Positions 33,056 to 37,601 of a DNA stretch of 64,000 nt are shown piece after piece. The position numbers and the translations under genes are program-made. The notes under the pieces are model-generated. The model saw only the letters and a list, made by a program, of their open reading frames with translations, was not told the origin of the DNA and did not search any database. Source of the stretch: Cyclobacteriaceae bacterium (GTDB taxonomy: Bacteria > Bacteroidota > Bacteroidia > Cytophagales > Cyclobacteriaceae). Every line of letters begins with the position of its first letter. Within the stretch, counting starts at the first letter, position 1. Location of the stretch: positions 1 to 64,000 of the forward strand of contig JAOUDZ010000010.1 of NCBI GenBank assembly GCA_029858965.1, given 5' to 3'.

Positions 33056-33312
33056 ATTGGTTGGTTTTGGTTCATGTGAAGTTAACCAAAGCTGGTATTA
33101 ATTCGCTAGCGTTGAACCCTAAAATTAGGCCTACACGTATTAGCATTAGTCGCAAAGGGGGCAAGGAAGGTCATTAAACCAGCTATACTCCCAATCGTAT
33201 TGACGTGGCACTGCGCTCGCGCCGCTGGTTTTTTTGTAATTTGAAGAAAGGAAGGCAACCCTTTCATTTTTTGTTCCGTCAAGTATAAAGAACCTAAACC
33301 CGGGAATACCTC

Positions 33313-33855
33313 ATGGACCTGCTGATACTGGGCTGCAAGCGCAAAGATCGAGACAGCCAGCGATTGCTGTATCAGCATTATTATTCATATGCCTTAAGTA
33401 TCTGCGCCCGGTACTCAAGAACAATGGATGAGGCTAAAGAGGCGATGAATGATGGATTTATGAAAGTGTTTCTGAAGATCGATCAATATCATGGGGATTC
33501 GCCATTCAAACCATGGTTGCGACAAGTTATGATCAGGGCTTCCATTGATCAGTATAGAAAAGAGCTCAAGCACCAAAAGCATGATCCGATGGAGTCTGCT
33601 CATGCCGCTTTTACACAGCCCCGGGGCGAGGCCAATCTTTCACATGAAGAGTTAATAGGGTTGGTTCAAAGATTGTCACCCGCTTACCGGGCTGTTTTTA
33701 ATTTACACGTCATTGATGGCTACACCCATCAGGAGATTGGAAAAATGCTGAGGATTTCAGCCGGCACATCAAAATCGAACTTGCTGAAAGCGCGTGAGAA
33801 TTTGCGGAGCATGTTGGAAAGACTGGATAAGATTTCTTATGAAAAAGTTAACTGA
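33313..33855 (+). CDS. ECF-type RNA polymerase sigma factor
   Basis: 180 residues. Region 2 is visible in LLYQHYYSYALSICARYSRT, MDEAKEAMNDGFMKVFLKID and FKPWLRQVMIRASIDQYRK. Region 4 is in LVQRLSPAYRAVFNLHVIDG followed by YTHQEIGKMLRISAGTSKSN. There is no region 3 or 1.1, as expected for an ECF factor. The stop overlaps the start of the next gene by 17 bp, so the sigma factor and its membrane partner are made together. It probably controls this operon and other envelope genes. Confidence 0.93.
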   Translation: MDLLILGCKRKDRDSQRLLYQHYYSYALSICARYSRTMDEAKEAMNDGFMKVFLKIDQYHGDSPFKPWLRQVMIRASIDQYRKELKHQKHDPMESAHAAFTQPRGEANLSHEELIGLVQRLSPAYRAVFNLHVIDGYTHQEIGKMLRISAGTSKSNLLKARENLRSMLERLDKISYEKVN

Positions 33856-35356
33856 TCAGGAGCTCGATTCTCTTTTTAAGGAAGCCGCAGAAGGTTTACA
33901 ACCTGCTTTTGATTCGGCCGGATGGCGTGCCATGGAGACGAAACTTGATCAGGCTAATCGAGCCCCCTGGAGGGGGTGGATCCCGCTAATATTGTTGGGT
34001 ATAGTCATTTTTTCAGGCGGCGTATGGGTAGGCATAACCTATGAAGTTTCCAGTATCGGTAAGGTTACACCTGAAGGCAAAGAGCAAGCATTAATGCAAG
34101 ACCGGCCTGTCACGACGAGGCAAAATCAAAGTCAGCTTCAAAGCGCATCTGATGCTGAACAGGAAAGAACCATCGCTGATAAGCGCAGCGGGGAAGAAAA
34201 TAAATCAGGTGAATCGGTTGCTCCATTTGATCCGCAAGTTATTCGTGACGAAAGGAACAATACTCATCGTAGCAGCAGCGTCGTCACCAATAAAAAAAGT
34301 CAATTCGGTGAGGCGGAAACTTTCGTTAGCCAAAATGATAATAGTGGTTCATTTGCAGCGACAACCATTGCGCAGGCGAATGAACCATCTGATAAGCAAG
34401 GTATTCGCGACAAAAAGAACAATTTTCATCCCAGCAACGGGGTCATCACGGATGCAGCAAATAACATCAGCAAAGCCGAACCGCTCGCGCGCCAAAATGA
34501 AAACAGCAATTCGTTGATTGTTGCAGCGCACGCAGAAAAATCTGATAAGCCGGTTATGGGAAATCAGGAGCAAGTCGTTCATCCGGGCAGCAGTGTCATC
34601 GACGATGCGGAAAATCACCTCAGCGGAGCGGAACCGCCCGATCTGCAAAATGACAAGCGTAGTTCATTAACGGTAGTCAACGGTGATCATGCCAATGACT
34701 CGATTATGCACGAAATGAACAGTGGGAAAGCAGCCATAAACCAATCGGAGACGGCAGAAACGGTAATCGAACAAAGAAACAAGATTTCGAATTCAATTTT
34801 CATCAGAGCGCTCGCTTCCCCGGATTTATCCTCCATCAATTATGCCACAGCCAGCTCAGTTGGAAGCAACTTTGCTTTACTTGTGGAATATCAATTCAAC
34901 GGCAGGTGGTCAGTTTCTACCGGAGGAATTTGGTCAAAGAAAAAATATTCTACGGACAATGAGATCACGTACGGCAATTACACGGCAGATCGTTTGGATG
35001 GTACTTGCCGTATTCTGGACATTCCCATAAACCTTTCATATCAGTTTCGACCACATCACAGAACTTCATTTTATGCGAGTGCAGGCTTTTCATCCTACAT
35101 CATGGTAAGTGAAAATTATACCTATACCGTATTTACCAGTTATGGCGATCGGGTCTATAATGATGAGATAGATGGAAAAAATAACGAGTGGTTCAAGATG
35201 CTTAACCTATCGTTGGGCATTCAATATCAATTATCGCACCGGTTGTATTTACAGGCAGAGCCATTCTTAAAGGCTCCTTTGGCAGGTGTAGGCGAAGGTG
35301 ATGTATTGTTGTCCAGCATGGGTATATTCGCGGGTCTCAAGTATAGAATTAAATAA
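33839..35356 (+). CDS. Inner-membrane-anchored protein with repeat linker and outer-membrane barrel (candidate anti-sigma)
   Basis: 505 residues from the ATG at 33839, overlapping the sigma gene by 17 bp. Residues 1-45 are polar (MKKLTDQELDSLFKEAAEGL). Residues 47-68 form one transmembrane helix (IPLILLGIVIFSGGVWVGI). About 70-315 is a hydrophilic linker with three tandem repeats of about 52 residues. About 318-505 is a small barrel (FALLVEYQFNGRWSVSTGGI, DIPINLSYQFRPH, SSMGIFAGLKYRIK). The short N-terminus beside a sigma gene suggests an anti-sigma role. The layout would join cytoplasm, inner membrane and outer membrane in one chain. That role is inferred; the topology is read from the sequence. 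Confidence 0.75.
   Translation: MKKLTDQELDSLFKEAAEGLQPAFDSAGWRAMETKLDQANRAPWRGWIPLILLGIVIFSGGVWVGITYEVSSIGKVTPEGKEQALMQDRPVTTRQNQSQLQSASDAEQERTIADKRSGEENKSGESVAPFDPQVIRDERNNTHRSSSVVTNKKSQFGEAETFVSQNDNSGSFAATTIAQANEPSDKQGIRDKKNNFHPSNGVITDAANNISKAEPLARQNENSNSLIVAAHAEKSDKPVMGNQEQVVHPGSSVIDDAENHLSGAEPPDLQNDKRSSLTVVNGDHANDSIMHEMNSGKAAINQSETAETVIEQRNKISNSIFIRALASPDLSSINYATASSVGSNFALLVEYQFNGRWSVSTGGIWSKKKYSTDNEITYGNYTADRLDGTCRILDIPINLSYQFRPHHRTSFYASAGFSSYIMVSENYTYTVFTSYGDRVYNDEIDGKNNEWFKMLNLSLGIQYQLSHRLYLQAEPFLKAPLAGVGEGDVLLSSMGIFAGLKYRIK
34223..34699 (+). repeat. Three degenerate tandem repeats within the barrel-protein linker
   Basis: Units start near 34223, 34385 and 34538 (residues 129, 183 and 234). 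Each follows the pattern [D/S]-x-x-x-V/I-I-R-D-x-x-N-N-x-H-x-S-S-x-V-[I/V]-T, then A-E-x and Q-N-[D/E]-x-x-S-S. The copies have diverged, so this is an old duplication or fast evolution of a spacer. Confidence 0.65.
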
Positions 35357-35363
35357 GTTAAAT

Positions 35364-36176
35364 ATGCAAACCAGAAATCAAATCAGAATTATAACCGTTT
35401 CGCTATGCGTATCGTTGTTCACCTTCAAGGGATGTTCCAGTGATGACGCACCGCAGCCGGTCGATTGCGCCGTATCCACGCTTGCCGTAACTGGCTCCGG
35501 GTCAGGTCCTACTTCGTGTGGCGCCACCGATGGTTCGATCACTGCCACAGCAACGGGGGGGGATGAACCATATCAGTTTGCAATCGATGCCCAACCTTTC
35601 GGTGGTTCCCCGGCTTTTACCGGCTTGGCAGCCGGCACCTATCAGCTGAAGGTCAGGGATAAAAACAACTGTGAGCGAACCAAAAGTGTAACGATAAATG
35701 CAGCCGGATCAACACTTGCTGCCACTGTTAATACAACCGTAAGCGGTTGCAAAACCAGCGATGGCGTCATTACCATCAATGCAAGCGGCGGTACAGCACC
35801 ATATGCTTATCAAATAGCTGGCGGGGCAACATCCGGTACGTCAGTATACGATAACCTTGCTGCCGGAAATTATTCGGTTAAAGTCACGGACAACACGGGC
35901 TGTTCGGTAACGCAAAATGTGGAAGTCTTAAATGGAACTTTGTACAGTACTGAAGTGCAAAGCATTATTACTGCCAATTGTGCTGTATCCGGATGCCACG
36001 TATCGGGGGGTGCGGCATCTGTCAGCTTTACTAGTTTCGCAAATGTACAATCACGTGCCGCCGACATCAAATCAAAAACGCAAAGTGGTGAAATGCCCAA
36101 AGACGCAGCCAAATTACCACAAGCTCAGCTGGACCTGATTTCCTGCTGGGTAGAGGATGGCGCTTTGAACAATTGA
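35364..36176 (+). CDS. SprB-repeat lipoprotein with C-terminal cytochrome-like CX4CH domain
   Basis: 270 residues from the ATG at 35364, 7 nt after the previous stop. Lipobox FKGC (Cys24), then SSDDA, a surface-export-like signal. Two SprB-type repeats follow (about 50-115 and 125-190), each with GSITATATGG/GVITINASGG, AAGTYQLKV/AAGNYSVKV and a conserved Cys. The C-terminal 70 residues read IITANC-AVSG-CHVSGG, a CX4CH motif instead of CxxCH, with later SGEMPKDAAKL and LISCWVEDGA as in short planctomycete-type cytochromes. Haem binding is plausible, and CX4CH is known in cytochromes c3. Electron transfer or adhesion at the surface is inferred. Confidence 0.8.
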   Translation: MQTRNQIRIITVSLCVSLFTFKGCSSDDAPQPVDCAVSTLAVTGSGSGPTSCGATDGSITATATGGDEPYQFAIDAQPFGGSPAFTGLAAGTYQLKVRDKNNCERTKSVTINAAGSTLAATVNTTVSGCKTSDGVITINASGGTAPYAYQIAGGATSGTSVYDNLAAGNYSVKVTDNTGCSVTQNVEVLNGTLYSTEVQSIITANCAVSGCHVSGGAASVSFTSFANVQSRAADIKSKTQSGEMPKDAAKLPQAQLDLISCWVEDGALNN

Positions 36177-36183
36177 GCTTCAA

Positions 36184-36729
36184 TTGAAAAAAGTAAAAGC
36201 AATCATACTGTTGGTCCTGACGACTCCCGTAGTACTTTCCGTCTATGGCCAAAAGTACGCTGCCGAACAATCCTTGGTCAGTTTTTTCTCTGATGCTCCT
36301 GTTGAGGATATCAAGGCAGAAAACCATAAAGCAATTAGTCTGCTGAATGTGTCCACCGGGGAGGTTGCTATTTCAATTCCCATCAAAGATTTTGAGTTTG
36401 CCAAATCCCTGATGAAGGAACACTTCAATGAAAAGTATCTCGAGTCAGATAAATATCCAAAAGCCATATTTCAGGGGAAGTTTATTAACTTTAATTTAAA
36501 TGATTCCTCCGAACAAACAGTAAATGCCACAGGCAAGCTAACCATTCATGGTGTTACCAGAGAGATTAAAGTATCCGGAACATTTCAACCCAGCCCGAAT
36601 CAAATCGTGGCGCGGTCGAAATTTGTGATCAGATTGGAAGATTATAAAGTTAAAATTCCTCAGATCCTGTGGAACAATATTGCAGAGGAGGTTGAAGTAA
36701 CAATAGCGCTAACCTATAAACGCTTATGA
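36184..36729 (+). CDS. YceI-family secreted protein
   Basis: 181 residues from a TTG at 36184, 7 nt after the preceding stop. Signal peptide (AIILLVLTTPVVLSVYGQ). The YceI lipocalin-like fold shows EVAISIPIKDFEFAKSLMKE, HFNEKYLESDKYPKAIFQG, TVNATGKLTIHGVTREIKV and VRSKFVIRLEDYKVKIP-like segments. Family members bind isoprenoid-like lipids in the periplasm. The stop overlaps the next start by 4 bp (ATGA), so the two are translationally coupled. Confidence 0.9.
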   Translation: MKKVKAIILLVLTTPVVLSVYGQKYAAEQSLVSFFSDAPVEDIKAENHKAISLLNVSTGEVAISIPIKDFEFAKSLMKEHFNEKYLESDKYPKAIFQGKFINFNLNDSSEQTVNATGKLTIHGVTREIKVSGTFQPSPNQIVARSKFVIRLEDYKVKIPQILWNNIAEEVEVTIALTYKRL

Positions 36730-37601
36730 GAATACTTATTGTCCTTTTCTTCCTTGCGGGTACAGCTTGTTATGCACAGGATGACTTGCTTAACGAACTT
36801 GAACAAAGCAACCCAACGGAACCCGAATACGTAACATCCACATTTAAAGGTAGCCGTTTGGTTAACGGTCAGACTGTCAAAACAAAAAATAAGCGTGAAC
36901 TGGAATTTATTTTCTCGCATCGGTTTGGGGCGATAAATCAGGGCCTATACGAACTTTTTGGTCTGGATCAGGCCTATGTTCGCCTGGGCCTGGAGTATGG
37001 TATTACGGATCGACTGGGTGTCGGCCTGGGACGCAACTCCGTGGATAAGACAATGGACAGCTACCTGCGCTACAAAGCCTTAAAACAAGTAGTCGGTGGC
37101 ATGCCTGTTACCATTACTGCTTATGGAAATTTTGCGATTAAAACTTCACCAAAAAAGGAAGATGCCGGATTTGATATTACGCTGGAGGATCGCCTCTCGT
37201 ATACGGGTCAGTTGCTTATCGCCAGAAAGTTTACTTCAGCGTTGTCACTTCAACTGATGCCTACCGTTGTTCACAAAAACCTGGCTGACCAGACCATTGA
37301 AAACAACACCCAATTTGCACTGGGGGCAGGTGGCAGAGTAAAAGTGTCGAAAAGTATTTCACTGAACGTCGAATATTATCATCGTTTTGGTGTCCCGGAC
37401 AACAATCCTTATTACGATGCCCTGGGTTTTGCAGTTGACATTGAAACGGGTGGTCATGATTTTCAATTGATCATCACCAATACCAGAGGCCTGACAGAGC
37501 GTGCTTTTATTACTGAGACTGCCGGCGATTTCTTTGACGGAGACATCCATCTTGGATTTAATGTTACACGCACGTTTCAATTCGGCCGAAAGAAAAAATA
37601 A
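36726..37601 (+). CDS. DUF5777-family outer-membrane barrel protein
   Basis: 291 residues with a signal peptide (ILIVLFFLAGTACYAQ). The DUF5777 hallmark is seen in FKGSRLVNGQTVKTKNKREL, then EFIFSHRFGAINQGLYELFG. The rest is a barrel with short strands (YVRLGLEYGITDRLGVGLG) ending NVTRTFQFGRKKK. It is the last gene of the ECF unit, and the stop is followed by 130 bp before the convergent MtfA-like gene. Function unknown; DUF5777 genes commonly sit beside cytochrome and YceI genes. Confidence 0.88.
   Translation: MRILIVLFFLAGTACYAQDDLLNELEQSNPTEPEYVTSTFKGSRLVNGQTVKTKNKRELEFIFSHRFGAINQGLYELFGLDQAYVRLGLEYGITDRLGVGLGRNSVDKTMDSYLRYKALKQVVGGMPVTITAYGNFAIKTSPKKEDAGFDITLEDRLSYTGQLLIARKFTSALSLQLMPTVVHKNLADQTIENNTQFALGAGGRVKVSKSISLNVEYYHRFGVPDNNPYYDALGFAVDIETGGHDFQLIITNTRGLTERAFITETAGDFFDGDIHLGFNVTRTFQFGRKKK

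Follow-up and report, generated by a model that had tools for sequence, protein, structure and literature searches.

An ECF sigma factor gene coupled to a Dma-type partner predicted to span both membranes in a Cyclobacteriaceae bacterium

Can a single polypeptide link the outer membrane of a bacterium to a sigma factor in its cytoplasm? The question is raised by two overlapping genes in a stretch of 64,000 nucleotides from a Cyclobacteriaceae bacterium (Bacteroidota; assembly GCA_029858965.1, contig JAOUDZ010000010.1, positions 1 to 64,000 of the forward strand), referred to below as the window. The first gene encodes an extracytoplasmic function (ECF) sigma factor and the second a 505-residue partner protein. 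The anatomy of the partner, its likeness to Dma proteins, a motif recurring ahead of the pair and a recurring gene order behind it were computed here. The two genes most probably constitute a Dma/Das-type signalling pair in which the partner would hold the sigma factor and span both membranes, and which would have its own promoter and an operon of envelope genes. The pair consists of the following features.

33313..33855, + strand: ECF sigma factor gene, Das-like, 180 aa (Pfam profiles, comparison with a Das2 orthologue)
33839..35356, + strand: second gene, encoding the 505-aa Dma-type partner (Pfam, profile-profile comparison, AlphaFold2 model)
33839..33976, + strand: predicted cytoplasmic anti-sigma domain, residues 1-46, helices 6-18 and 26-40, with W29 (model, conserved Trp, hhalign)
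33980..34039, + strand: single transmembrane helix, residues 48-67 (model, hydropathy)
34043..34783, + strand: disordered tether, predicted periplasmic, residues 69-315, 247 aa, no Cys (model confidence)
34211..34696, + strand: three tandem copies, diverged, of a 51-54-residue repeat, at about residues 125-286 with approximate limits (ungapped self-match)
34793..35347, + strand: C-terminal 8-stranded beta-barrel of outer membrane type, residues 319-503 (Pfam, model, structure matches)

The sigma product carries ECF regions 2 and 4 (Sigma70_r2, E value 1.3e-10; Sigma70_r4_2, E 2.5e-13) and was 32% identical (E 8e-29) to the Das2 orthologue of Bacteroides finegoldii in a single pairwise comparison. 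This similarity is the basis for its putative assignment to the ECF21 group. The partner starts with the ATG at 33839, and therefore the two genes share 17 bp (33839-33855), as had been claimed in the original prediction made from the sequence of this region.

The structure of the partner was predicted by AlphaFold2 from 66 aligned sequences, with a mean predicted local distance difference test score (pLDDT) of 69.3 and a predicted template modelling score of 0.51; the pLDDT values below are ten-residue means. Residues 1-40, which comprise both N-terminal helices, scored 74-90, and the membrane helix 52-73, so that confidence in the latter is modest. The segment from about 70 to 310 had no predicted structure (42-57), and from residue 321 on the barrel scored 86-98. 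The tether repeats were found by self-comparison of the protein (best ungapped scores of 102 at offset 54 and 91 at offset 51, against a maximum of 57 in 500 shuffles), and Tandem Repeats Finder detected no repeat in the corresponding DNA, hence the copies are described as diverged. The original prediction had comprised a polar N-terminus of 45 residues, one membrane helix at 47-68, a linker of about 250 residues with three copies of about 52 residues, and a C-terminal barrel, and each of these elements was recovered with only small shifts of its limits. A model lacking the barrel, which had been named as the outcome that would speak against the proposal, was not obtained.

The barrel is covered by PF13568 (E 1e-10) and PF13505 (E 3.1e-7) and matched small outer membrane barrels in Foldseek with E values as low as 1.6e-9. 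In the structure ranking a porin of the Legionella Dot/Icm machine came top (Z 19.1), tied with NspA (VIA Z 18.9) and OmpA (18.5; 9a2m), and the N-domain of OprF (17.7) and OmpW (17.1) were also matched. A PDB sequence search with the whole-protein profile gave 24 weak matches with no outer membrane barrel among them. The strands number eight when 436-445 and 450-464 are counted as one. On the side predicted to face outward they are joined by loops of 5, 12, about 16 and 10 residues and on the other side by turns of 4-5 residues, the pattern expected if the tether enters the barrel from the periplasm.

One-chain systems of this kind are not new. The Dma family was reportedly described by Pardue et al. 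in PNAS in 2024. A 2026 paper in J Bacteriol (PMC13088901) describes Dma1/Das1 and Dma2/Das2 of B. thetaiotaomicron with the same parts as those predicted for the window pair, namely an N-terminal sigma-binding domain, a helix, a disordered tether, a barrel and an adjacent ECF sigma factor, and reports that deletion of Dma1 or Dma2 acts through the neighbouring sigma factor. According to the same paper, Dma2 is BT_1558, located beside BT_1559 (Das2), BT_1557 (DUF4943), BT_1556 (DUF4858) and BT_1555 (like nitronate monooxygenases), and deletion of dma2 raised the expression of das2 and BT_1555-BT_1557 (PMC13088901), a local feedback similar to the one proposed below for the window operon. The B. 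finegoldii locus L183 was taken to encode the Dma2 orthologue since its gene order (sigma factor, barrel protein, DUF4943, DUF4858, nitronate monooxygenase) matches BT_1559-BT_1555. The sigma/partner layout of L183 is shared by L184, situated beside a NigD-like gene, and by L182 from Parabacteroides.

These three Bacteroidales proteins, joined in a three-sequence alignment, served as the reference for profile-profile comparison. The whole-protein profile of the window family matched it with a probability of 98.0% (E 1.9e-13), the alignment running over the barrel, the N-terminal domain profile matched the three N-termini in hhalign with 92.1% (E 6.3e-7) and the barrel-only profile matched their barrels with 96.8% (E 2.2e-10). 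Five control comparisons of reversed or mismatched parts gave 0.1-1.4% (E 0.036-0.7). PF13568 was above the cut-off on L184 and L182, and PF13505 was at the cut-off on L183. Judged by sequence and model, the predicted anatomy that defines a Dma protein (N-terminal domain, membrane helix, tether, barrel and adjacent ECF sigma factor) is that of the window protein, and the pair fits membership in the published family.

The window locus differs from Dma2/Das2 in the sequence of its sigma factor (32% identity), in the tandem repeats of its tether and in its downstream genes, which encode a cytochrome-like lipoprotein, a YceI protein and a DUF5777 protein instead of DUF4943, DUF4858 and a nitronate monooxygenase-like protein; the motif described below was not seen ahead of the Bacteroides sigma genes tested. 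Dma3 of the B. theta bt_2778-2779 locus belongs, according to PMC13088901, to the same family, but carries its sigma domain within the same chain, whereas the window sigma factor is encoded by a separate overlapping gene.

Comparison with two further kinds of system helped to place the pair. In the FecI/FecR/FecA system an outer membrane event governs an ECF sigma factor through an inner membrane protein, which is the likeness to the window pair; however, in that system the TonB-dependent receptor (FecA) and the anti-sigma factor (FecR) are distinct proteins, whereas the window has one chain with a small barrel. A system of the FecIRA type was rejected on the grounds of the single chain, the small 8-stranded barrel and the absence of a TonB-dependent receptor domain from the Pfam matches. 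The N-terminus of the partner may be compared with CnrY, which is not known to carry a barrel. CnrY, a class II anti-sigma factor, wraps two helices around CnrH according to PMC7406223, and a similar two-helix hold on the window sigma factor is proposed on this basis; the likeness to the two N-terminal helices of the partner is one of description rather than of sequence comparison.

We infer binding of the sigma factor, promoter activity, a signal and a release step, which would be connected as follows. Residues 1-46 of the partner would lie in the cytoplasm, where the two helices would clamp the sigma factor from the overlapping gene, probably as CnrY holds CnrH; the single helix would sit in the inner membrane, the disordered tether would cross the periplasm and the 8-stranded barrel would be placed in the outer membrane. 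Topology, linker length and homology suggest that both membranes would be spanned simultaneously. A change in the outer membrane, be it a ligand on the barrel, displacement of the barrel or its failed insertion, would free the sigma factor either directly or after the tether is cleaved; pulling, cutting of the tether and loss of the barrel are possible means of release. The free sigma factor would then read its own promoter, GGCAACC-N16-CGT, and raise the expression of the operon encoding itself, its restrainer, the cytochrome-like SprB lipoprotein, the YceI protein and the DUF5777 barrel.

Pairing of the two genes was examined in 98 genomes from the family of the window organism, in which the partner was matched (E 0.001 or better) in 44, the own genome included. 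Beside the own locus there were 50 distinct places, of which the 40 strongest were examined and 10 left out. In 37 of the 40 the partner gene is overlapped by, or lies 3 bp from, a sigma gene of the same orientation, which bears out the gene order that the original prediction had proposed to look for in homologues. Two of the three loci without a sigma gene (L051 and L073) are cut by contig ends. The third, L072, is an intact Dma-like gene for which the 8.6 kb examined contained no sigma gene, an orphan member of the family.

A scan of named genomes with the sigma alignment gave the same arrangement among the best 80 named places, all of which had a partner gene downstream; the N-terminal profile was matched in 77 (E 0.1 or better) and the barrel profile in 75 (E 0.01 or better). 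Of the five places without such a barrel match, L126 has a run of N that interrupts the gene and the barrel profile is matched after it (E 8.5e-56), L138 and L161 gave weak Pfam barrel matches under the cut-off (E 0.0043 and 0.24), L129 gave none, and the L150 partner of 211 residues is too short for a barrel. A chance arrangement of the two genes was rejected in view of 37/40 family loci and 80/80 best named relatives being paired. A held-out set was made of 20 top sigma matches from outside the family, which left 19 new loci after removal of one repeat, and 18 of these partners matched the barrel profile. On plasmids, where 6 of 142 matching records were examined, the partner was annotated as a barrel in five, L185 being the exception, and a single-sequence query found no close viral relatives. 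The names of the best 80 sigma relatives are of the Bacteroidota type, save for L149 (a metagenome-assembled genome (MAG) labelled Thalassobius), L155 (a MAG labelled 'bacterium') and L131. The last is Rhodohalobacter, of the phylum Balneolota in the NCBI taxonomy, and has the motif, YceI and DUF5777.

The anatomy was surveyed in 104 distinct relatives (window, family and named), all selected by a barrel-profile match. A tryptophan precedes the membrane helix in every one of them, the best 19-residue hydropathy was 1.6 or higher in 91 of them and 1.2 or higher in 103, and the tether of 111-637 aa (median 173.5) has almost no Cys. The longest tethers, of 637 and 435 residues, occur in L043 and L048, proteins of 900 and 705 residues. 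The net charge favours a cytoplasmic N-terminus in 85 of the 104, with nine ties. Conservation was low in the tether (0.51 bits) and higher in the N-terminal helices (2.24 and 1.98 bits) and the barrel (1.97 bits), where loops 1-3 were weakly conserved (1.12-1.15 bits), loop 4 was high (2.33 bits) and the outward halves of the strands exceeded the other halves (2.39 vs 2.05 bits, compared without a statistical test). A nearly invariant cysteine, C390 (35006-35008), lies near the start of strand 4 on the predicted outward-facing side.

Upstream of the sigma gene the window contains one further element of interest.

33255..33279, + strand: promoter-like motif GCAACC-N16-CGT, 34-58 nt ahead of the sigma start codon (counts, position weight matrix)

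In its longer form the window copy reads GGCAACC-N16-CGTATT. When pairs of 4-mers were counted without bias in 109 upstream regions, AACC and CGTA stood out at a distance of 16 bases (26 regions, expected 0). The pattern GCAAC-N17-[CT]GT occurred in 68 of the 109 regions, a count made on the discovery set itself, as compared with a mean of 0.46 and a maximum of 2 in 50 shuffles; when spacings of N15-18 were allowed 74 regions matched, 68 of them at spacing 17. Among the held-out loci 10 of 19 had the exact motif, including L223, which lacked a matching weight-matrix score. The window copy scored 27.7, the top score in the window, followed by 14.4 and 11.7. The shared motif ahead of the pair comes in addition to the likeness to the Dma family and is promoter-like by sequence. 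Limited literature searches gave no paper on it; the text of the motif itself was not searched, so its absence from print is not claimed.

In nine upstream regions a match was also present on the opposite strand. The divergent gene belongs to one family (tblastn to the L132 protein) in L112, L117, L124, L127, L132 and L158, and the three of these proteins tested matched Lipoprotein_15 (E 1.8e-35 to 1.5e-38). Four loci have a related gene immediately ahead of the sigma gene and in its orientation, and in three of them the motif precedes that gene (scores 27-31), L088 being the exception. The null distribution for 430-bp stretches (n 810, real sites kept) had a median of -3.8, a 99% point of 24.2 and a maximum of 31.5, and because it is so broad the Lipoprotein_15 site scores of 13.9-19.1 are weak on their own. 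The weight-matrix scan of the own genome covered the window, 30 of 54 pattern places, L163-L179 and L188-L190, and a regulon in trans was not supported by these stretches. The other YceI-DUF5777 cluster of the genome, L188 (YceI E 1.1e-18), had no site scoring at least 11, the sites in L212 (19.0) and L219 (24.0) fall within genes of the opposite strand, and L206, L189, L213, L210 and others scored 11-16.

Three closely spaced genes follow the pair.

35364..36176, + strand: lipoprotein-like protein with SprB repeats and a C-terminal CX4CH segment, 270 aa (SprB E 1.7e-11)
36184..36729, + strand: YceI-family protein, 181 aa if the start is TTG 36184 (PF04264 E 4.2e-17, scanned from 36196)
36726..37601, + strand: DUF5777 beta-barrel protein, 291 aa (PF19089 E 2.1e-90)

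The SprB gene begins 7 bp after the dma stop, YceI follows after another 7 bp and DUF5777 with a 4-bp overlap. The CX4CH segment of the SprB protein resembles a c-type cytochrome by eye, and no cytochrome profile matched the window copy; its relatives have CxxCH and weak cytochrome profile matches (E about 0.001, below the cut-off), and because these matches are weak the cytochrome-like label relies on CxxCH/CX4CH and the C-terminal pattern. The survey of the operon took in 112 distinct loci, for each of which between 0.3 and 4.6 kb of sequence downstream was examined. On the same strand downstream YceI was found in 51 and DUF5777 in 48; 47 loci had the two together and 52 had one or both, in comparison to three YceI and three DUF5777 genes upstream on any strand and one and three, respectively, downstream on the other strand. 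Of the held-out loci 12/19 had YceI and/or DUF5777. The gene order varies between loci, as does the companion gene, which encodes a cytochrome-like lipoprotein, a Rieske protein (20 loci; two tested, E 1.1e-12 and 7.5e-7), a CHRD protein (11 loci; one tested, E 4e-31) or a protein of no named family (5 loci). DUF5777 is no marker of the pair since it is common by itself, being present in 85 of the 98 family genomes. In the own genome it also occurs in L189 alongside a YceI domain protein, an EB_dh/cytochrome protein and a 4Fe-4S protein, a composition which fits a redox role but does not prove it. The recurring envelope operon is a second result in addition to the likeness to the Dma family. 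Limited literature searches retrieved no paper on DUF5777, nor on YceI with an anti-sigma factor in Bacteroidetes, and absence from print is not claimed; a wider search on YceI and anti-sigma factors gave one Burkholderia listing.

Several results weigh against the proposed Dma/Das-type pair with its own promoter and operon. Searched against single sequences, the N-terminal model of the window family did not list L183 or L184 at E 10 and gave 0.58 for L182, and the barrel model gave E 4.7e-4, 0.62 and 1.8 for L182, L183 and L184; as such simpler searches miss two of the three, the link to the Bacteroides Dma proteins relies on the profile-profile scores and the shared layout. The sigma match is unspecific, in that L185, whose partner has no barrel, scored 130 bits, close to the 131-185 bits of L182-L184 (the sigma genes of the own genome from L168 on scored 85 bits or less). 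The net charge opposes a cytoplasmic N-terminus in 10 of 104 relatives. The mirror-tree partial correlation with the sigma factor was 0.41 for the N-terminus and 0.52 for the barrel, so coevolution judged by distance matrices does not single out the N-terminus and is not decisive. The motif is lacking in 35 of 109 upstream regions even by the looser count, was not seen ahead of the six plasmid-borne sigma genes tested (Bacteroides ones included) and is not associated with the operon (Fisher p 0.14, 100 loci), and the bare pattern is not enriched genome-wide (54 matches vs 85 in the reversed control).

The same data may be read in other ways. The helix at 48-67 might be an unusually long cleaved signal peptide, which would leave an ordinary outer membrane barrel with an incidental sigma neighbour. 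Cleaved signals are common in small outer membrane barrels, and a single helix followed by polar sequence can resemble a signal peptide; however, the 46-residue two-helix region preceding the helix, with its tryptophan kept in 104/104 relatives, and the sigma neighbour in 37/40 loci speak against it. The L150 protein, which combines the same N-terminal domain (E 2.6e-9) and helix with no barrel, also stands behind a sigma gene, and the Dma2 deletion is reported to act through Das2 (PMC13088901). This explanation is therefore judged very improbable.

A barrel that does belong to the sigma switch could still act in a different manner from the proposed continuous chain. If the tether were cut in the periplasm, the inner membrane half, under regulated proteolysis, and the barrel would work apart. 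RseA-like factors, the well-studied ECF anti-sigma factors, are switched by proteolysis, a disordered tether would be accessible to proteases, and barrel-less single-helix partners stand beside related sigma genes in L150, L164, L167 and L185. On the other hand, judged by profile, 75 of the best 80 named relatives keep the halves within a single gene, and the tether does not fall below 111 residues in the 104 relatives, a set selected by the presence of a barrel. Separate action is unlikely in our estimation. Alternatively, the barrel may sense outer membrane assembly rather than a ligand, its failed insertion leading to degradation of the chain and freeing of the sigma factor. The model shows neither a plug nor a separate ligand-binding domain, conservation of loops 1-3 is poor, and envelope proteins with another barrel among them are encoded downstream, all of which would suit such a sensor, whereas the conservation of the outward strand halves and of loop 4 hints, without a statistical test, at a conserved outward-facing site. 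We regard an assembly sensor as possible, if doubtful.

With a two-membrane chain restraining the sigma factor as the preferred reading, we lean somewhat towards the view that a Dma branch found in Cytophagales, Sphingobacteriales, Chitinophagales and one member of Balneolota, with its own promoter AGGCAACC-TTTT-N12-CGTATT, controls a common outer-envelope programme of interchangeable redox-type parts. Its parts would be a c-type-cytochrome-like or Rieske lipoprotein, YceI, the DUF5777 barrel and CHRD lipoproteins, and Lipoprotein_15 proteins would join through divergent or upstream copies of the promoter. If so, a single chain would couple the state of the surface to electron-carrying envelope proteins, whereas the Bacteroides case concerns vesicles or glycan use. 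The literature found covers pairs of the Dma kind in B. theta alone, where the signal is as yet hypothetical. The present data suggest that one-chain signalling across both membranes is common in environmental Bacteroidota and their neighbours, beyond gut Bacteroides. The motif and the recurring operon provide concrete targets, and the minimum tether length of 111 residues can easily be compared with the width of the periplasm.

Other sigma genes of the same genome are of some interest. L166 (contig C225, 60845-61357, - strand) overlaps a gene for a 481-residue partner with a membrane helix near residue 48; this partner gave a weak barrel match (E 0.0017) and no Pfam match, and the motif is absent, so it is possibly a second pair of the Dma kind. 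L165 (contig C168, 13276-13800, - strand) is an ECF sigma gene with a motif scoring 25.4 upstream, followed only by a stretch that resembles, on visual inspection, a Dma N-terminus decayed and split over shifted frames, and then by a gene read as putative CHRD-like; loss of the restrainer or an assembly error may account for this. Finally, the sigma genes of L164 and L167 in this genome, like those of L150 and L185, are followed by short single-helix proteins without a barrel, whose likeness to the N-terminal domain ranges from E 2.6e-9 (L150) to E 2.8 (L164), or was seen by eye or weakly (L185, L167), and the anti-sigma module may thus also exist without the outer membrane part.

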